A stretch of 64,000 nucleotides of DNA from Desulfamplus sp. (GTDB lineage: Bacteria; Desulfobacterota; Desulfobacteria; Desulfobacterales; Desulfobacteraceae). Position 1 is the stretch's first letter; every line of letters begins with the position of its first letter. The notes below the pieces were generated by a model, which searched no databases, was not told where the DNA came from, and saw nothing but the letters and a program-made list of their open reading frames with translations. Where the stretch lies: assembly GCA_015232465.1 (NCBI GenBank), contig JADFZO010000002.1, positions 20,919 to 84,918 on the forward strand, given 5' to 3'. The position numbers and the translations under genes were made by a program. Positions 16,379-33,583 of this stretch are shown one piece after another.

Positions 16379-16471
16379 GCATTTTTAAACTGTAGCCTTA
16401 CATTGATTTTACATACTATGCCCAATATGTAAACGACTATGATTTTAATATAAATGGAGGAATTTTAAAGC

Positions 16472-17794
16472 ATGGGTGAAGCGGCAATTAAAATTGGAAG
16501 AAAGCACAAAAGCATTTTCAAAGACAAGGTGATGGACCTTCTGCCAAACGGCGGCAACCTAAACGCCTGTCTGACATGCGGAGCGTGTGCGTCTGGCTGT
16601 CCTGCTACTGGTCTTGAGGGTATGGACCCAAGAAAATTTTTGCGTATGGCAGCACTTGGAATGGACGAAGAGATATTAAATACCAATTGGGTCTGGATGT
16701 GCTCGATGTGCCAAAGGTGCATCTATGTCTGTCCAATGGAGATCAATATTCCTCAGTTGGTATTTCATGCAAGAAAATCTTGGCCCAGAGAGAAAAAGCC
16801 AAGAGGTATCGCTGGTTCTTGTGATCAGGCTCTTAAAAATGACACTTGCAGTGCTATGGGTGCAACAGAAGAGGATTTTGAGTTTGTTGTTAATGATGTT
16901 CTTGAGGAATACAGAGAAGGTCAGCCTGAGTTTGCCGAGATGACCGCAGATGTAAACAGGGAAGGTGCCCATTACGTTCTAAACCAAAACTCAAGAGAGC
17001 CTGTAACAGAACCTGATGAGATGGTGCCATTATGGAAAATTCTTCACCTTGCAGGTGCAGACTGGACATACAGCTCCAAAGGATTTGCAGCGGAAAACTA
17101 CTGCATGTTCATGGCAGAAGATGACAACTGGGAAAAAATTGTAAGAACAAAAGCAAAGGCAGTAGATGATCTTGGAGCCAAAGTCTGGCTAAATACCGAG
17201 TGAGGGCACGAACTATTTGCAGTCCTGGCAGGACTGAAAAAATTCAAAATTGAACACAAATTTGAGATTAAAAGTATAATTCAACTTTACGCCCAGTGGA
17301 TAAAAGAAGGAAAGCTCAAACCAAGTTCAGAGTGGAATAAAGAGAGAAAAATTAAATTCACAGTTCAAGACCCATGTCAGCTTGTAAGAAAGACCTTAGG
17401 TGATCCTGTTGCAGATGATCTTCGCTATATAGTTAAGGCTGTTGTTGGTGAAGAGAATTTTGTGGATATGACCCCCAATAAATCTAATAACTTCTGCTGC
17501 GGTGGCGGTGGTGGTTTCCTACAATCTGGTTTTACAGAGGCAAGAAGGGCTTATGGAGAGACAAAAGCAAATCAGATACTTGCAACAAAAGCAGAATACT
17601 GCATAACTCCTTGCCACAACTGTCATGCACAGGTGCATGATATGAGCGATGTTCATGGACATGCGTGGCAGACAGTTCATCTCTGGACGCTGTTGTGCCT
17701 CTCACTTGGTATTCTTGGTCCTAAAGAGAGAGCATATTTAGGCGATGATCTTATTGATGTTGATGTGTTCCACCCTGAGATGGCTGACGAGTAA
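16472..17794 (+). CDS. HdrD/DsrK-like (Fe-S)-binding oxidoreductase with predicted in-frame selenocysteine (UGA at 17201-17203)
   Basis: ORFs 16472..17203 and 17462..17794 are in the same frame and the 86 codons between are open. N-term has two 4Fe-4S motifs (CLTCGACASGCP, CSMCQRCIYVCP); after the UGA comes GHELFAVLAG...NFCCGGGGGF...CHNCH. UGA falls where CCG-domain proteins have Cys in 'NTECGH'; SECIS-like hairpin follows. Confidence 0.88.
17220..17236 (+). promoter_or_regulatory. Bacterial SECIS-like hairpin
   Basis: CAGTCC-TGGCA-GGACTG, 6-bp perfect stem, 5-nt loop with G at position 2, loop starts 23 nt after UGA. Confidence 0.75.
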
Positions 17795-17830: not shown

Positions 17831-17876
17831 AAAAAAGCCCGTTGCAGATATAATATCTCTGTAACGGGCTTTTTTA
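17831..17876 (+). terminator. Rho-independent terminator after the HdrD-like gene
   Basis: AAAAAAGCCCGTT-GCAGATATAATATCTCT-GTAACGGGCTTTTTT: GC-rich stem followed by T-run. Confidence 0.85.
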
Positions 17877-17924
17877 ATAAATAGAATTGTGGCGTAAGAT
17901 TTGGATTTTTGTAAGGAGAAGAGA

Positions 17925-20816
17925 ATGGAAAAGAGAAAAACCATACTCATTGTTGATGATCAAGCCTCGATCATAAAATCTTTGAAGAGGCTTTTACTGA
18001 CAGAAGATTACGCTATTTTATCTGCCCCGAACGGACCTGCTGCACTTGAACTTATTGCCAATAGAGGCGAACAAGATGATATTTTTCTAATCATCTCTGA
18101 TCAAAGAATGCCAAATATGACTGGACTTGAATTTTTAGAGCATAGTGTGGAGCTTTTGCCAAATGCAATAAGATTTATACTATCAGGCTACTCTGATAAT
18201 GAGATTGCCCTAAATGGCATTAAAAAAGGCACTGTGCACAGATATTTAACAAAACCGTGGAGAAACGATGAGCTTCTTTTGATAATCCATCAGGCTTATG
18301 AGTCTCCTGAAAAGGTAAGGCGACTTGCTGATTCTATTGTAAATGCAGATGATGGTGTGGCAAGCTCGTCAGAGCCAAACATAATGGAAAAAGAGATAAA
18401 AGAGTTTGACCAGAGAGCCAAAGATAGAGCTTTAGGAAAAATGGCTCTTCATCACGGTTTTATAAATCAAGAGCAGTTAAATGAGGCAATGGCTACAATG
18501 CAGATTGATCGTCAATCTGGACGAAATGTATCTCTTGAAAATATACTGCTTGAAAAGGCTTTTATCTCGTCAGACAATATTGGTAAATTGGTTGCAGCTA
18601 CACGTAGAAGGGTTGGTAAATCTTTTGGCTCTATTGCTATAAAAGATTATGGAGTAGCTCCTAAAGAGATTGAACGCTGTTTGGCGATTCAGTCAAAAGA
18701 GTTTGCTGATACCTCAACCTGCCGTCTTCTTGGTGATATTCTTGTCTTTGAAAAGCTACTGACAGAGGATCAAAAAGACTCTATCTTAATTGATATGACA
18801 TACTCAGAGAGAGAGATTTTTACATCTTCTAATGAGAAAAATAGTCAAGAGGGGGCTTTAGATCAAAACCAGAGTAATGGAAATGGTGATACACCAACAA
18901 ATGAAACAGATAAAAAAATATTGTTAAACAAAAAAAAGAGAAAATTTTTCAAGCAGCGTGCCCTTGATAAGATAATTTGTAAATCTGCAATAGAGATGAA
19001 CCTTGCAACTGAGCCAGAGGTCTTAAAGGCTTTAGAGGAGCAGCTTCTCCACTTTATGAAGATGGGTGAAATAAAAGCAATAAGAGATGTTTTTATTGAC
19101 CACTCCATAAACCTACAAACAGAAGAAGATAGCACTAAAGATAGTTCAACTACTCAAGATGTTAAGGCAAATATTATCACACTTGGGGATAAAAACTGCT
19201 TTGAAGTAGCGATAAATAGTGATGAGACTGAAGCAACAATAAAGATAGTAGCAGAGCTACCAGAGGGTATGAATGTTGATAAGTTAAAAGATTTGCTTGC
19301 TACAAACAGCATAACATACGGCATTGCTGATGATGTTGCAATTGAGCTTTTTTTAAGAGGTTGGTCTTCAAAAAGTAAGACAAATCAAGAGGGTTTTACC
19401 ATTGCAAAGGGAAAAGCTGCAAAAGAGGGTAGAAATGCTGGGGTTAAATATTTTTTTGAAGATCACAATGCTGATTTTGGAAAAGAGCTTGAATCAGGCA
19501 AATTTGATTACAGAGATAGAGGGGAGATGAGCACTGTTGAGGAAGGGGCAATTTTAGCTGAAAAAATTCCGCCCATTCCAGCACTCAACGGCATTAGTAT
19601 TTATGGCTTAGAGATTGTAGCCCCCTTGCCTGTTGATATTAATCTTGATTGCGGCAAAGGGGCAACGTTGTTAGAAGATGGATTAAAGGTTATTGCCTCT
19701 GCTAATGGGCGACCAGATATATCTCTTGGCGGAAAAATAAGCGTGCTTCCAGAGATTGTGGTTAAGGGAGATGTTGACTTTAAGACTGGCAATATCAAAT
19801 TTAACGGAAATGTTACTGTTCATGGCAATATATTGGCAGGTTTTAGCGTAGTTGCCAACAATCTTACTGTAAGCGATATTGAGGAGGCTGAGGTAAATAT
19901 TGCAAACACGCTTATTGTTAAAAATAGTATCAATGACTCAACTGTCAAAACTGGCGGAAATATAGCTGCTCAAATTATTAAAAATAGCTCAATTACTGCA
20001 CGAGGCGATGTTGTTGTCCAAAAGGAGATTATTGATTCAACAATTATAACCAGCGGCAAGGTTATTGTTCCAAGAGGACGCATTATTGCAACTACGATTC
20101 ATGCAGCAAAAGGGGTTGAGGCTATGAATATTGGCAGTGAGGTTGCCTCTCCATGCCATATTTTTCCGGGTGCAGATGAACACTCACTTGATACTATAAA
20201 TCGGTTTAATGATAAAATTAATATTCAAAAAGAGGGTCTTGCAAAACTTGAAGAGTTAAAAGCTCAATGTGAAGAGCAAAATTGGACCCAATTAAATAAT
20301 CTATCTGAAGCATCAAAGGTTCAAGAGCAGCTTACTGACGAGCATCAAGAGATTTTAAATAAGTTGGGTGTATATCAAAAAAGGGGGGTAAAACGTGAAT
20401 TAGAGGAGGCTCTATCTGAGCTTGATAAAAAGATAGTAGAGGTTGAAAAGTCAATAAACACTCTATTTGATGAAAATGAGACCATGCAGAGCAAGATAAA
20501 GCAGATTGAAGTTAAGATTGAAGGGATCAAAAAAAATATTCAGATGCTATTAAACGATAAAAGCAAATTTGAAAAGTGGTATAAAGATCAAAAAGAGCAG
20601 GCTCGTAAAGAGGGGATAGGTGTAGCGGCACAAGGGACAATCTTTGCAAGAACAGTTGTTGCAACACAAGAGTCTTCAATCACCCTTAAAAACCACATTA
20701 AAAACTCAAAAGTGCATCAGGTTCTAAACAACGAAAAGCCAAATAATCCATTCTATGAAATGAGAATAGACCCCGTAGCATCAAAGTCAAAGCAGCCCCA
20801 TGTTTATAGAAATTAA
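17925..20816 (+). CDS. Response regulator receiver + GspE-N-like middle region + DUF342/FapA domain
   Basis: REC (ILIVDDQASIIKSLKRLL...LIISDQRMPNMTG), repeated LGKMALHHGFINQEQL-type segments, beta-helix-like FapA region (IVAPLPVDINLDCGKG...NGRPDI), C-terminal coiled coil; start ATG at 17925 with AGGAG. Confidence 0.82.
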   Translation: MEKRKTILIVDDQASIIKSLKRLLLTEDYAILSAPNGPAALELIANRGEQDDIFLIISDQRMPNMTGLEFLEHSVELLPNAIRFILSGYSDNEIALNGIKKGTVHRYLTKPWRNDELLLIIHQAYESPEKVRRLADSIVNADDGVASSSEPNIMEKEIKEFDQRAKDRALGKMALHHGFINQEQLNEAMATMQIDRQSGRNVSLENILLEKAFISSDNIGKLVAATRRRVGKSFGSIAIKDYGVAPKEIERCLAIQSKEFADTSTCRLLGDILVFEKLLTEDQKDSILIDMTYSEREIFTSSNEKNSQEGALDQNQSNGNGDTPTNETDKKILLNKKKRKFFKQRALDKIICKSAIEMNLATEPEVLKALEEQLLHFMKMGEIKAIRDVFIDHSINLQTEEDSTKDSSTTQDVKANIITLGDKNCFEVAINSDETEATIKIVAELPEGMNVDKLKDLLATNSITYGIADDVAIELFLRGWSSKSKTNQEGFTIAKGKAAKEGRNAGVKYFFEDHNADFGKELESGKFDYRDRGEMSTVEEGAILAEKIPPIPALNGISIYGLEIVAPLPVDINLDCGKGATLLEDGLKVIASANGRPDISLGGKISVLPEIVVKGDVDFKTGNIKFNGNVTVHGNILAGFSVVANNLTVSDIEEAEVNIANTLIVKNSINDSTVKTGGNIAAQIIKNSSITARGDVVVQKEIIDSTIITSGKVIVPRGRIIATTIHAAKGVEAMNIGSEVASPCHIFPGADEHSLDTINRFNDKINIQKEGLAKLEELKAQCEEQNWTQLNNLSEASKVQEQLTDEHQEILNKLGVYQKRGVKRELEEALSELDKKIVEVEKSINTLFDENETMQSKIKQIEVKIEGIKKNIQMLLNDKSKFEKWYKDQKEQARKEGIGVAAQGTIFARTVVATQESSITLKNHIKNSKVHQVLNNEKPNNPFYEMRIDPVASKSKQPHVYRN

Positions 20817-20857
20817 AAAAAATAAGATAAGATAAAAACTCAGATATAGGAGGCAAA

Positions 20858-23800
20858 ATGGCAGAGAGAAACACAATATTAATAGTTGATGATCAAGAGT
20901 CAATAATCAAATCTCTAAAGCGTCTTTTATTGCCAGAGCCTTACCAAATTCTATCTGCAACTGATGGGGAGTCTGCTTTAGAGTTTATAAAAGAGCACAA
21001 CAAAGATAACCAACAAGAGGGGTTAAGCAGCATATTTTTAATAATATCTGATCAAAGAATGCCAAATATGACAGGCACACAATTTTTAGAAAAAAGTGTT
21101 GAGCTTCTGCCTAATGCCATAAGATTTATCCTATCTGGTTACGCAGATAGAGAGGACATTATAACCTCTCTTAATCAAGGTATTGCCCACAGATATTTAA
21201 CTAAACCGTGGAATAATGACGAACTTTTGATAATGGTTCGTCAGGCTTATGAATCTCCAGAACGGTTAAAAGCGGTTGTAGAGTCATATAATCCAGCATC
21301 AAAGCTGCCTGAGATCAATATCATGGATAAAGAGATCAAAAAGTTTGATGAGCATCGCAAAGATATGTTTTTAGGAAAAGCTGCTGTGCATCATGGCTTT
21401 ATCAACCAAGAGCAGCTTGAGTCATCAATTACAGCTATGCAGAGTGAAAGACAGGCTGGCAGAAATGTCTCACTTGAAAATATTCTCTTTGAGAAGGGGT
21501 TCATCTCATCAGAGGATATGGGCAAAATTGTTGCTGCTACTAAAAGAAGAATGGGCAAAAACTTTGCAAAAGCTGCAATGAGAGATTTTGGAGTCTCCCT
21601 TGAAGATATTGAAAGATGCCTTGCTATCCAATCTCAAGAGTTTAAGGACACAACCACCTGCCGAGTTCTTGATGATATTCTTGTTGCTGAAAATATCATC
21701 ACAGAAGAGCAAAAAGAGTCAATTATAATTGATCAGATTTACTCAGAAAGAGAGCTTGTAAGCTCAAATAGCACTGTTGATTATCAGCCGATTAGCGATA
21801 ATGAGCAAGATGATAGCATATCTGACAATACAGACGATAATGTAGCCATAGCTCGCAGTTATGATTTAGAGTTGCCAGTTGATGTTAGGAGTCGGGCAAA
21901 AGATGATCTAATTTTAAAGAGACGAAAGAAAAAATTTTTCAGGCAACGTGCACTTGATAAAATCTTTTGCAAAGCTGCGATAAATAGAAATTTTGCAACT
22001 GAACCAGAAGTTTTAAAGGCTCTTGAGGTTCAGATGCTCCACTTTACAAAGACATTTGAGATAAAACAGATCAAAGATATTTTAACTGAACGCTCAATAA
22101 TTTCTCAAGAGCAAGCACAAACCATTGTTAATGCACTCTCTCAAACTCAACAAGAGCGAAATTTGCAAACTAAGCAGCAAGAAGAAGAGGCGGCGGCGGA
22201 GAAAAATAAAGAAAAAGATGAGGCAGCTACCTCAGAAAAAGAGAGCACTTCAAGTATAGAGCAGATTCACTCAAAATCAAGCGATGCCTTTGAGGTTACA
22301 ATATCTTCTGATCAGCTTGAGGCAAAGATAAGGCTTGTTGGCGATATGCCAGAGGATATGACAGCAATAAGACTTAAAGAGCTTGTTGCTTCAACATACC
22401 AAATAAGTTACGGTTTTGCTGATGACACAGCAATTGAGCTTTTTTTAAAGCAGGCTCCAACAAAAAAGGAGAGCTTTGTAATTGCAAAGGGAAAACCATT
22501 AAAATTGGGTCGCAACGCACTTATAAAATACTTTTTTGAAGATCAAAACAAAATTTTTGGAAAAGAGCTTGCTTCAGGAAAGTTTGATTACAGAGATAGA
22601 GGCGAGACTCCGAATGTGATGCAAGGTGCACTGCTTGCTGAAAAAATTCCAATAATACCATCATTTAATGGCATTACTGTTCGTGGTACTGAGATCATAG
22701 CCCCTATTCCAACTGATGCAAATCTTGATTGCGGGCAAGGGGTCGGGCTATCAAAAGATGGATTAAGGGCTATTGCCATTGTAAACGGGCGACCTGATTT
22801 AGCTGTAAACGGCAAGATAAGCATTCTTCCTGAAAAGGTGATAAAGGGGAATGTTGATTTCAGGACTGGCAACATCAAATTTAGCGGAGATATTGTTATT
22901 ACTGGAACAATACTTTCCGGCTTTAGCGTAACTGGGGCAAATCTTACTGTAAACGATATTGAGGAGGCTGAGGTAAATATAACCAACTCGGTCTCTGTTA
23001 AAAATAACATCAACGCATCAACAGTCAAAACAGGTCTGCTGCTAACAGCTCAAACAATCAGCAGAAGCACCATAATTGCTCAAGGAGATGTTGTGGTTCA
23101 AAAAGAGATAATTGATTCAACCATCATCACAAGTGGAATGGTTATAGTCCCAAGGGGTAGAATTATTGCAAGCACCATTCATGCAGCAAAGGGTATTGAG
23201 GCTATGAACATTGGCAGCGAGGTTTCAACCCCTTGCCAACTATTCCCAGTCTCTGATGAACATGCCAATAGCGTTATAAAATCATTGTTGGACAATATTG
23301 CGAAACATGAGGATCATCTAAGCAAACTTGAGGCTGTTGAAAAGCAGTATGATAACCAGAGTGTTCATCAGTTAAATGAGCTATCTGAACTATCAAGGCT
23401 TCAGGAGAGGCTTATTGTGGAGAGACAAAAGATAATTAATGATAAACAGGGGGTCTCAAGCGAGATTGTAAAAAAACAGATGGACGAATTTTTAGCTGAA
23501 CTTGATAAAAGGGCTTTAAAGATGGACCAGACTATTAACAAGCTCTTTGATGAAAATGATGTGTTGGTTACAAAAAATAGTGAAGTTAAGGTAAAGATCA
23601 AGTCAGTTAAATCAGAGCGACTCAACCTTGTGAATGAAAAAAATAGGTTTGAAAAGTGGTACGCAGAGCAAAAAGCAGATATCTCTGAAGAGCCTGGAGT
23701 CTCTGCTCAGAGCACTATTTTTGCTGGAACACAGATTACTGGTAGCAAATGCTCTATAAGGGTTAAAAATCATATTAAAAACTCAAAGATTCAGCAGGTT

Positions 23801-23893
23801 ATAAACACTAAAGACCCAAATAATCCATTCCATGAGATGGCTATTTTACCATTAACCTCAAGAGGCAAGCAGCCTCATGTTTTTAGAAAATAG
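20858..23893 (+). CDS. Paralogue of the upstream REC-DUF342/FapA protein
   Basis: Collinear similarity to 17925..20816 along the full length (e.g. PRGRIIASTIHAAKGIEAMNIGSEV). Confidence 0.82.
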   Translation: MAERNTILIVDDQESIIKSLKRLLLPEPYQILSATDGESALEFIKEHNKDNQQEGLSSIFLIISDQRMPNMTGTQFLEKSVELLPNAIRFILSGYADREDIITSLNQGIAHRYLTKPWNNDELLIMVRQAYESPERLKAVVESYNPASKLPEINIMDKEIKKFDEHRKDMFLGKAAVHHGFINQEQLESSITAMQSERQAGRNVSLENILFEKGFISSEDMGKIVAATKRRMGKNFAKAAMRDFGVSLEDIERCLAIQSQEFKDTTTCRVLDDILVAENIITEEQKESIIIDQIYSERELVSSNSTVDYQPISDNEQDDSISDNTDDNVAIARSYDLELPVDVRSRAKDDLILKRRKKKFFRQRALDKIFCKAAINRNFATEPEVLKALEVQMLHFTKTFEIKQIKDILTERSIISQEQAQTIVNALSQTQQERNLQTKQQEEEAAAEKNKEKDEAATSEKESTSSIEQIHSKSSDAFEVTISSDQLEAKIRLVGDMPEDMTAIRLKELVASTYQISYGFADDTAIELFLKQAPTKKESFVIAKGKPLKLGRNALIKYFFEDQNKIFGKELASGKFDYRDRGETPNVMQGALLAEKIPIIPSFNGITVRGTEIIAPIPTDANLDCGQGVGLSKDGLRAIAIVNGRPDLAVNGKISILPEKVIKGNVDFRTGNIKFSGDIVITGTILSGFSVTGANLTVNDIEEAEVNITNSVSVKNNINASTVKTGLLLTAQTISRSTIIAQGDVVVQKEIIDSTIITSGMVIVPRGRIIASTIHAAKGIEAMNIGSEVSTPCQLFPVSDEHANSVIKSLLDNIAKHEDHLSKLEAVEKQYDNQSVHQLNELSELSRLQERLIVERQKIINDKQGVSSEIVKKQMDEFLAELDKRALKMDQTINKLFDENDVLVTKNSEVKVKIKSVKSERLNLVNEKNRFEKWYAEQKADISEEPGVSAQSTIFAGTQITGSKCSIRVKNHIKNSKIQQVINTKDPNNPFHEMAILPLTSRGKQPHVFRK

Positions 23894-23946
23894 TCTCAAT
23901 TATCAAAATAATACAATAAAATATAAAAATGGGGGAGCTTTATATA

Positions 23947-25416
23947 ATGGAGGAGAATAAGAGGATTTTAGTTGTTGATGATGATGAGGGGATACGAGGC
24001 ACATATCAATCTATATTTACGCCAGAGCAAGAGTCTGACATTCTGCAAACTGGGGCATATCTATTTGATATTAATCTGAGTCGTGAGCAAAAGAGGCAAA
24101 AACAGAAACGTAGAAAAACAATTGATTACCAGCTATCTATGGCTGAGAATGGAAATCAAGGTATTGAGCTTGTAAAGTTATCCCTAAATGAGAACAGCCC
24201 CTATGCAGTAGCCTTTATTGATATGAAGATGCCGGGTATTAATGGTGCTGAGACCTCAAAGTTGATATGGGAGATTGATCCAAAGATTAGAATTGTAATT
24301 GTTACAGCTTATAGCGAATATACACCTGATGATATAATTGCCATTGCTGGAAGAGATGATATTTTCTATTTAAGAAAACCATTTAACCATGAGGAGATTT
24401 TACAATTTGCCCGTGCTTTGACCAATGAGTGGAATTTAGAGCAAAAACAAGATGTGCTTAAAATTGAGCTTAAAGCTGCAAATCAGGCATTGGAGGATAT
24501 GAATAAAAATCTTAAAGCACAGGTTGAAAAGCAGGCTGCTTTGATTGTCCAAACAGACAAGATGGCATCTGTTGGGCTTCTTGCTGCTGGAGTTGCACAT
24601 GAGATCAACAACCCATTATCTTTTATAAACTCTAATTTATCAGCGTTAAAAAGATATATGCAAAAGATTGATTCTCTTCATAAAAAGTATAGCGATGTAG
24701 AGCTTTTTTTGCGTTACTCAGGTCTTGAAAATGCCCCTTTACTTTTAGAGGAGTTAGAAAATTTTAAAAACGATAACAAAATAGAGCTTATAATGGCTGA
24801 TATTAACGATCTTACTGATGAGTCCCTTGATGGTATAGAGCGTATTAAAACCATTGTCAGCGATCTTAAAACATTCTCAAGAATTGATGAGACTGAGTAT
24901 AATCTTCTTGATATAAACAAAGCGATTGATACAACAATAAATATTTTATGGAATGAGCTTAAATATAAAACAGCAATAGTGAAAAATTACGGACGCATTC
25001 CAGAGATCAGATGTTTTCCACAAAAGATAAGCCAAGTCTTTATGAATCTTTTGCTTAATGCTGCTCAATCAATAAAGGAGCAAGGAGAGATAAGAATCTC
25101 TACACAGCTAACCACAAAACATGCTCCACAACAGTTAAATGTCAACAAAACAGAGGCAGTAGAGACAAATGGGCATCAGGTAGAGCAAAAGAGCTATATT
25201 GAGATAAAGATGAGCGATACAGGGTGCGGTATCCCAAAAGATAACCTAAAACGTCTATTTGACCCCTTTTTTACAACAAAACCAGTTGGTCAAGGAACTG
25301 GTCTTGGACTTAGCATAACTTACGAGATTATAAAATCGCACAAAGGGACAATTGAAATATCAAGCGAGGTTGGAGTTGGCACTGAGGTTACTGTGATGCT
25401 CCCTGTTGGGTTATAA
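23947..25416 (+). CDS. REC-histidine kinase hybrid
   Basis: FIDMKMPGINGAE receiver; GVAHEINNPLSFINSNL H-box; SDTGCGIPKDNLKRLFDPFFTTKPVGQGTGLGLS. Confidence 0.9.
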   Translation: MEENKRILVVDDDEGIRGTYQSIFTPEQESDILQTGAYLFDINLSREQKRQKQKRRKTIDYQLSMAENGNQGIELVKLSLNENSPYAVAFIDMKMPGINGAETSKLIWEIDPKIRIVIVTAYSEYTPDDIIAIAGRDDIFYLRKPFNHEEILQFARALTNEWNLEQKQDVLKIELKAANQALEDMNKNLKAQVEKQAALIVQTDKMASVGLLAAGVAHEINNPLSFINSNLSALKRYMQKIDSLHKKYSDVELFLRYSGLENAPLLLEELENFKNDNKIELIMADINDLTDESLDGIERIKTIVSDLKTFSRIDETEYNLLDINKAIDTTINILWNELKYKTAIVKNYGRIPEIRCFPQKISQVFMNLLLNAAQSIKEQGEIRISTQLTTKHAPQQLNVNKTEAVETNGHQVEQKSYIEIKMSDTGCGIPKDNLKRLFDPFFTTKPVGQGTGLGLSITYEIIKSHKGTIEISSEVGVGTEVTVMLPVGL

Positions 25417-31741: not shown

Positions 31742-33583
31742 TTACACACCAAGCTCTGCATTTTCTTTTTCGTCAATAGATAAGTCTTCTTCTTTTTGGG
31801 CTTGATAACTAACATCTTCTTCTGAATCCTCATCTGCTTCTAATGATAACTCTGAACTTAGCTCAACATCATCAGCCTCTTCTTCTTTTTCTGTATAAGA
31901 GCCATTGTCATCATCGTCAATCAGATTTTCAACATCAGGAAGATAATCTTCGTTATCTGACTCTGCTTTAGCCTCTTCTGACTCATCTTGATAGCCATCT
32001 TCTTCTATAATTTCATCTATTGGAGCAAGCTCTGGCTCTAACTCTAACTTGATTTTTGCATCGCTATCTTCATCTTCTTTAATTGCTTCTTCTTCAAGCT
32101 CATCAAAAGCTGCCTCAACAGACTCCTCAACGCTTGTCTGCTCTAAAACTTCGCCCTTTGTAATAGCCTCTTCTTGATCAATCGCCTCTTCATCTTCATC
32201 ACTTAAAGCCTCTTTAATCTTGCTTGAAAGCTCATCTTTTAAGCTGTAATCATACTCAGAAGCTCTTTCATCATCAACATCACCATCTCCAACAAGATCA
32301 TCAGAATCAATACCAGTAATAGCAGATTCGCCCTCAGCATCACCCTTAACTTTGGTCATTCTCTCATCTTGCCACCACTGCTTTAGCTTTAAAACTGCCT
32401 CAGATAGCTCCGCTCCAGCAGCATTAACATCAAACTCAATATTTTCACCAGTAATTGCCCTGATAGCCTCTAACGCCTTTTCGCGTATCTCAAGCTCCTT
32501 ATCGCCAAGCACCTTAATTAAAGAGAGTACAGATGACTCATCTTTTAAATTTGCAAGAGCAGATACAGCAGCCTTTCTCACCCGTGCCTCCTCATCAATC
32601 AGACATTGTGAGACTGCTGGGACTGCATCTTCTGGGTCTTTCCAGCCGATAAATGTAAGGGCTGTTCTTCGCACTTCAGGATGATCATCGCGAAGAGCCT
32701 CAATAAGTGCTGGCATTGAGACATCCTCTCCAGCAAGTTTAAAAAGACCACGCAAACAACCAATACGCACCCTATACTTTTCAGATTTTAGCTCTTTGAT
32801 AAAAAGCGGAACAGCTCGCGAATCACCAATACTTATGAGCGAGTTGATAATCTCAGCAGTAAGATCAGGATCATCATATCGAACAGCGTCCATAAGAATT
32901 GGAACACCAGCATCATTGCCTATTTTTCCAATTTCAGCAGCAGCAAGATATTTGATCTCCATCTCACTATCTAAAAGGTCATGGGCAACTTTATAAAAAA
33001 TCTCCTCTTCAGAACGGGACTCAAACACACCTGTTTTTAGTGCAGTGTTAATCGAATTTTCAACAACCTTATTTATCTGCTCAATTGATGCTTTTTCTTT
33101 ACTCACCTTCTCTTTTAGCTTTGCAAAAGCAGCCTCTTTTTTAAGCTCTTTTTGACGTATCTTTGCAGCTATCTTCTCCTCTTTTAGTTCAGAAATACGA
33201 TTTTTTAGCCTCTCAATCTCTTTTTCATACTCCTTTACATCAGCAAGAAGCTGCTTTAAGTTGTCTGACTCTAAAATTGTGTTACCATCAGCACTTCGAG
33301 CACCCTCTTTACCAATCTCAAAATAGAGGGCTTTTATCTCTTTTTCATACTCAGCAATCTTTTTCTCAAGTTTTCCTATCTCACCAGTCTTTATAAAACC
33401 AAGACCTTTTGTAAACATACCCTTAGGAACAGGCTGAAAATCAGGCACCTTTTTAACTGCTGACCAAACTTTATTCAGACCATTTGCAGTTGCATCATAC
33501 ACCCATACAGTTGAGCTACCCACTGCATTAAGAGCACTTGCAAACCTACCCCTTGATTCTCTTTGATTAATCTCTTTTTCCAT
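31742..33583 (-). CDS. Coiled-coil/HEAT-repeat protein with acidic C-terminal tail
   Basis: HEAT-like repeats (GVPILMDAVRYDDPDLTAEIINSLISIGDSRAVPLFIKEL...VSALANLKDESSVLSLIKVLGDKE) followed by an Asp/Glu-rich tail. Confidence 0.8.
   Translation of the reverse strand: MEKEINQRESRGRFASALNAVGSSTVWVYDATANGLNKVWSAVKKVPDFQPVPKGMFTKGLGFIKTGEIGKLEKKIAEYEKEIKALYFEIGKEGARSADGNTILESDNLKQLLADVKEYEKEIERLKNRISELKEEKIAAKIRQKELKKEAAFAKLKEKVSKEKASIEQINKVVENSINTALKTGVFESRSEEEIFYKVAHDLLDSEMEIKYLAAAEIGKIGNDAGVPILMDAVRYDDPDLTAEIINSLISIGDSRAVPLFIKELKSEKYRVRIGCLRGLFKLAGEDVSMPALIEALRDDHPEVRRTALTFIGWKDPEDAVPAVSQCLIDEEARVRKAAVSALANLKDESSVLSLIKVLGDKELEIREKALEAIRAITGENIEFDVNAAGAELSEAVLKLKQWWQDERMTKVKGDAEGESAITGIDSDDLVGDGDVDDERASEYDYSLKDELSSKIKEALSDEDEEAIDQEEAITKGEVLEQTSVEESVEAAFDELEEEAIKEDEDSDAKIKLELEPELAPIDEIIEEDGYQDESEEAKAESDNEDYLPDVENLIDDDDNGSYTEKEEEADDVELSSELSLEADEDSEEDVSYQAQKEEDLSIDEKENAELGV

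Follow-up and report, generated by a model that had tools for sequence, protein, structure and literature searches.

A selenoprotein family called "Fe-S oxidoreductase-like," with a UGH motif that contains the selenocysteine (Sec) residue, has been established by bioinformatics, and its function is uncharacterised (PMC1794560; PMC13188914). Its members in Deltaproteobacteria are also listed under the name "GlpC" (PTHR43551; PMC1794560; PMC13188914, Table 1). A Sec-containing HdrD4, a soluble fusion of HdrC and HdrB, has been reported in the related marine sulfate reducer Desulfobacterium autotrophicum HRM2 (PMC2702500). Among proteins in the PDB, the ones to be compared here are HdrB and HdrC from methanogens (5odc, 7bkb, and 8rvu) and EtfD from M. 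smegmatis (9ojn). In EtfD, Cys581 ligates a linear [3Fe-4S] cluster, and a noncubane cluster, D2, is completed by His583. D2 is fully coordinated via this His, is noncatalytic according to the authors, and has been proposed to act as a relay (PMC13083937).

We analysed a gene within a 64,000-nucleotide stretch of DNA from Desulfamplus sp. (referred to as the window). The gene adds a new, well-supported member to a selenoprotein family already known from sulfate-reducing bacteria and does not represent a new kind of selenoprotein; judged by its sequence, the encoded protein belongs to the "Fe-S oxidoreductase-like (GlpC), motif UGH" family. The best explanation as a whole, which we regard as highly probable, is that of one intact gene for a 440-residue selenoprotein, an HdrD-type fusion with a presumed electron path to the site of Sec244. 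That Sec variants of Hdr- and GlpC-type Fe-S oxidoreductases are known in deltaproteobacteria, as the initial annotation of this DNA had stated, agrees with the literature (PMC1794560; PMC13188914; PMC2702500).

The in-frame UGA, the downstream hairpin, and the Sec machinery

The gene consists of a single reading frame whose sole in-frame TGA is codon 244 (Table 1). The initial annotation had joined two open reading frames (ORFs), 16472-17203 and 17462-17794, together with the intervening gap, into one full-length selenoprotein gene split by UGA. The three parts indeed share one frame, which ends with TAA at 17792-17794, and the UGA lies in the motif NTE-U-GH with a CCG motif (C342-C343-G) and a CxxC motif (C381/C384) intact downstream, just as it had stated. 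Standard gene callers will mis-annotate the gene as two fragments, in this genome as well as in its relatives. The terminator-like repeat beyond the gene, which is absent from the list obtained in a terminator scan of the window, weakly suggests a single-gene transcript.

Table 1. Features of the Sec-containing HdrD-like gene (positions in the window)
Feature	Position	Strand	Basis
Full-length selenoprotein coding sequence, 440 aa plus TAA, predicted HdrD-type HdrC + HdrB fusion	16472..17794	+	Homologues full-length, 70-97% identity through the TGA
Sec244 UGA codon, in-frame	17201..17203	+	TGA at codon 244 of homologues; Cys (TGC/TGT) in 18 others
Bacterial SECIS-type hairpin, 7-bp stem, loop GGC at 17227-17229	17220..17236	+	Stem kept with Sec, lost with Cys; compensatory changes
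2x[4Fe-4S] ferredoxin-type domain, N-terminal, residues 29-91	16556..16744	+	Pfam Fer4_8/Fer4_17; similar to HdrC chains
CCG domain, C-terminal, complete motif C302-C342C343-C381xxC384	17360..17635	+	Pfam PF02754; Cys invariant in 36 homologues
GGAGGA, Shine-Dalgarno-like, 10 nt 5' of ATG	16456..16461	+	Seen directly in sequence
Inverted repeat plus T run, possibly a terminator	17831..17876	+	Seen directly in sequence; weak

The nearest homologues, identified by tblastn with the read-through protein against public genomes, comprise 79 distinct loci with 70-97% identity, and codon 244 is TGA in 79/79. Both L013 and L014 have a second, tandem copy, in which codon 244 is likewise TGA. Homologues were also read base by base from an independent sample spanning the phylum (297 genomes, of which 90 gave matches); an internal TGA is present in 54, at codon 244 in 54/54, and the remaining homologues read have TGC or TGT there. 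Altogether, 18 homologues harbor a Cys codon in place of TGA, and no homologue terminating at NTE was seen among the 79 nearest loci or in the phylum sample. The in-frame UGA is thus aligned with a Cys of homologues, and the protein is well conserved on both sides of it. The split returned by a standard ORF caller would fit a pseudogene or a sequencing error, the two ORFs being what remains after a true nonsense mutation. However, considerably more than 100 homologues, drawn from separate assemblies, share the identical TGA, the protein is highly conserved on both sides, and the hairpin described below is under selection; the conserved TGA refutes this explanation, whose probability we consider negligible. 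Our comparison of homologues demonstrates instead that selection maintains UGA244 as a sense codon at the position of a conserved Cys, and together with the hairpin it supports the reading as a full-length selenoprotein.

The hairpin directly downstream has arms at 17220-17226 and 17230-17236, and its loop lies 23 nt from the UGA. The hairpin and this spacing had been recognised in the initial annotation, with a stem written one pair too short. Folding of the single sequence is unexceptional (z = -1.0; 30/200 shuffles fold equally well) and uninformative, so that the significance of the hairpin is comparative, deriving from stem retention and covariation in the presence of Sec and from loss in the presence of Cys. 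Among homologues with at least 50% identity in both groups, 6.92 of the 7 stem pairs are kept in 119 Sec homologues, whereas the 13 Cys homologues keep 3.08/7. The 6.92 pairs observed for the 111 distinct Sec sequences exceed both the 4.12 obtained with synonymous codon resampling (maximum 4.40 in 300 runs) and the 6.33 obtained when codons were permuted within columns inside amino-acid classes (maximum 6.48 in 1000 runs). Covariation is 0.231, versus 0.086 when shuffled, and pairing is destroyed when the partner is slid. The innermost pair varies among G-C, U-A, and G-U, which are compensatory changes; one base of this pair falls on the second position of a Leu/Arg codon, its partner on a third codon position. 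The first base of the loop is G in 137/137 Sec homologues. Those with less than 50% identity keep loops that begin with G and fit the fixed 7-pair register less well (4.2/7), apparently because their stem is shorter or shifted. These comparisons demonstrate that UGA244 is directly followed by a SECIS-type hairpin with a G-start loop, selected in Sec homologues and not in Cys homologues.

The genome itself harbors selA (contig C22, 594 bits), selB (C61, 372 bits), and selD (C143, 363 bits), all above curated cut-offs; selD itself carries one TGA. A first Rfam search of the genome for tRNA-Sec returned other tRNAs only, and ARAGORN did not report tRNA-Sec either. The tRNA-Sec gene is intact in 6/7 related genomes, and the selC region of a relative, used as a guide, led to contig C65, whose end truncates a tRNA-Sec gene of near-identical sequence after 75 nt (L195 420-494, corresponding to G000:C65 37219-37293; Rfam RF01852, 39.3 bits, 72/91 model positions, truncated at the 3' end). 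The apparent absence of tRNA-Sec is therefore due to an assembly break inside the gene, as a result of which automatic annotation would label the genome selC-negative. The Sec machinery, without which the initial annotation would have been untenable, is thus represented by selA, selB, selD, and a selC truncated by the contig end.

Taken together, the sequence comparisons strongly imply that Sec is inserted at codon 244 by SelB and tRNA-Sec. Decoding of the UGA as another residue, either as Trp via a changed code or by near-cognate readthrough, would draw on the fact that readthrough is known in general; no support for it was found in the sequence. Homologues without TGA carry Cys and never Trp, the genome has selABD and tRNA-Sec, and the other TGA-interrupted genes seen (hdrA, mvhD, mvhA, and selD) all belong to known selenoprotein families (PMC13188914), which renders such decoding extremely improbable. 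The gene is evidence that UGA is very probably read as Sec in this Desulfamplus-like organism, whose genome is shown to have the decoding capacity. The initial annotation had suggested such decoding and had taken it as support for further novel candidates. The latter step does not hold, as decoding capacity alone is insufficient and each candidate needs comparative evidence of its own.

Other TGA-split frames in the window, screened with at least 70 aa before and at least 50 aa after the TGA, are found at 32682, 42267, 42489, 53172, and 63526 on the forward strand and at 19156 and 46895 on the reverse strand. Within this screen none has a convincing hairpin, and 63526 alone is accompanied by a SECIS-like hairpin, of 5 bp.

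Domain architecture and relatives of the predicted protein

The predicted protein is an HdrC+HdrB fusion of the HdrD type, with an HdrC-type 2x[4Fe-4S] region and an HdrB-type CCG region in a single chain. Pfam places a 4Fe-4S dicluster at residues 30-91 and CCG at residues 297-388. Sequence matches in the PDB are to HdrC for the N terminus and to EtfD (9ojn) and HdrB for the C-terminal part, and a Foldseek search with an AlphaFold model (pLDDT 84) gave EtfD as the best match (TM 0.65), followed by HdrB chains. The term "HdrD-like" in the initial annotation was thus appropriate for both domains and fold, whereas DsrK is no more than distantly related to the protein (107 bits, for a cut-off of 400).

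The HdrC-like N terminus contains two predicted cubane [4Fe-4S] cluster motifs (C33, C36, C39, C43, C77, C80, C83, and C87), and the five-Cys set for a putative noncubane cluster is present in the second CCG domain only. HdrB has two complete five-Cys CCG motifs and this protein one; the first CCG domain is degenerate, its other Cys residues having been lost with Sec244 as the sole remnant. Invariant positions across 36 diverse homologues include the eight Cys residues of the ferredoxin type, His246, C302/C342/C343/C381/C384, and position 244, where either Cys or Sec is found. In an HMM alignment to EtfD, residue 244 corresponds to Cys581, His246 to His583, and W198-T199 to Cys538-Thr539, from which the loss of the first-site Cys residues and the retention of Sec244 can be tentatively placed relative to EtfD. 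This comparison with the 2026 EtfD structure provides a concrete, checkable placement of Sec beside a noncubane cluster.

Each of the known systems resembles the protein in part. It shares the UGH Sec, located in a CCG-domain Fe-S protein, and the bacterial SECIS with the "GlpC" selenoproteins (motif of PMC13188914). The literature name is nevertheless loose for it, as GlpC proper, the anaerobic glycerol-3-phosphate dehydrogenase subunit C, is matched in NCBIfam with only 38 and 36 bits against cut-offs of 278 and 280. HdrD4 of D. autotrophicum HRM2, as described, is likewise an HdrC+HdrB fusion with Sec (PMC2702500). The N terminus matches HdrC and the C terminus HdrB of methanogens, but the two are fused in one chain with one complete CCG motif rather than two, and with Sec. 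EtfD is the best PDB match in both fold and sequence, and its C-terminal noncubane Cys set and C-x-H align (PMC13083937); unlike the protein of the window, it has a membrane domain, Cys at position 581, and three more ligands of the linear [3Fe-4S] cluster. The overall architecture is also that of DsrK, TmcB, and HmcF, whose relatives L004 and L005 retain the Cys of an E-C-G-H motif.

The top NCBIfam matches, HmcF (145 bits), TmcB (134 bits), and DsrK (107 bits), could be taken to indicate that the protein is itself one of these subunits of sulfate-respiration membrane complexes. The scores are far below the curated cut-offs of 750, 735, and 400, respectively, no membrane or cytochrome subunit gene adjoins, and the distant superfamily members L004 and L005 (25-29% identity), which have Cys rather than Sec, are separate genes of the same genome. 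We thus regard this assignment as very improbable and retain that of an HdrD-type fusion.

Paralogues, gene neighbourhood, and the possible role of Sec244

The window copy stands alone between an hrpA-type helicase gene and response-regulator genes; in many relatives the hrpA neighbour is kept and parA-parB is on the opposite side. In this it differs from the operon described for the "GlpC" selenoprotein family, which is represented elsewhere in the same genome. A Sec paralogue with 72% identity to the window copy is located on contig C125 (L185, G000:C125 3096-12226), in the order hydrogenase protease, hdrA(U), mvhD(U), SecHdrD, frhB, mvhG, mvhA(U). Four genes of this Sec-rich operon are TGA-interrupted, with the further Sec motifs DCAM-U in hdrA, IIMG-U in mvhD (frhD), and AYDP-U-VSC in mvhA (frhA), and the arrangement, including mvhG (frhG), matches the selenoprotein operon of PMC1794560. 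Other homologues are found beside hdrA, NAD(P)/FAD oxidoreductase, and metV/metF genes, a grouping similar to MetFV-HdrABC-MvhD (PMC5861303). In these operons, SecHdrD would occupy the place of HdrB-HdrC. As the window gene is solo, its partner is deduced from the paralogues, and based on the C125 operon its product is likely an electron-transfer subunit at the disulfide end of an HdrA-type complex.

By analogy, electrons would come from an HdrA-type flavoprotein, itself supplied by MvhD/hydrogenase or an NAD(P)H unit, and would pass through the two cubane clusters and the noncubane cluster to the Sec244 site and on to a disulfide or another acceptor. The presence of dsrC in the genome makes DsrC a possible disulfide partner. 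Sec244 would be at the noncubane-cluster site, two residues from His246, which aligns with a cluster ligand of EtfD, and might either attack a substrate disulfide (e.g., that of DsrC) or be a labile cluster ligand. That it coordinates the noncubane [4Fe-4S] cluster of the second CCG domain, either directly as a selenolate or as a displaceable bridge, seems unlikely to us; if true, this would constitute a natural, so far uncharacterised Fe-Se site catalysing disulfide reduction.

The alignment of His246 with EtfD His583, which completes a fully coordinated and reportedly noncatalytic cluster (PMC13083937), raises the possibility that the site is a pure electron relay. The protein would then contain Sec and not be a disulfide reductase, and Sec244 would tune the potential or protect the cluster; EtfD as the best fold match and the existence of Cys variants are consistent with this. 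On the other hand, the operon partners of the paralogue are HdrA/MvhD/hydrogenase units, the HdrB partner in methanogens is a disulfide reductase, and residue 244 is invariantly Cys or Sec despite the loss of the first-site Cys residues, as would be expected of a reactive residue. A relay function is somewhat unlikely in our view, and reduction of a disulfide, possibly that of DsrC, is the role suggested by the chemistry of the family.

A third paralogue of the genome, with Cys at the Sec position, is found downstream of a rhodanese-like gene and is cut by a contig end (L186, G000:C32 3134-4064; 60-62% identity). With two Sec copies (window and C125) and one Cys copy (C32), the genome provides natural Sec/Cys pairs for testing what Sec does at a redox site of the CCG domain. 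In a tree of 102 homologues, 9 Sec/Cys switches are needed, at least 6 of them forced by well-supported branches, and Sec is found in every deep ingroup branch. This pattern suggests repeated Sec-to-Cys losses, a direction that we do not claim because the root is on long branches. The window copy groups with Desulfamplus and Desulfocicer.

Tandem pairs of Sec HdrD-like genes, of the UGHVTFSV and UGHELFAV types, are present in relatives at L013 (1102-4144) and L014 (4223-7314); the window has one copy here. Downstream of the gene, at 17901-25416, the window harbors two tandem proteins of ~1000 aa followed by a receiver/histidine-kinase-like gene. The first of the tandem proteins (17901-20816) contains response-regulator receiver and FapA domains, an unusual combination, and the second looks alike.
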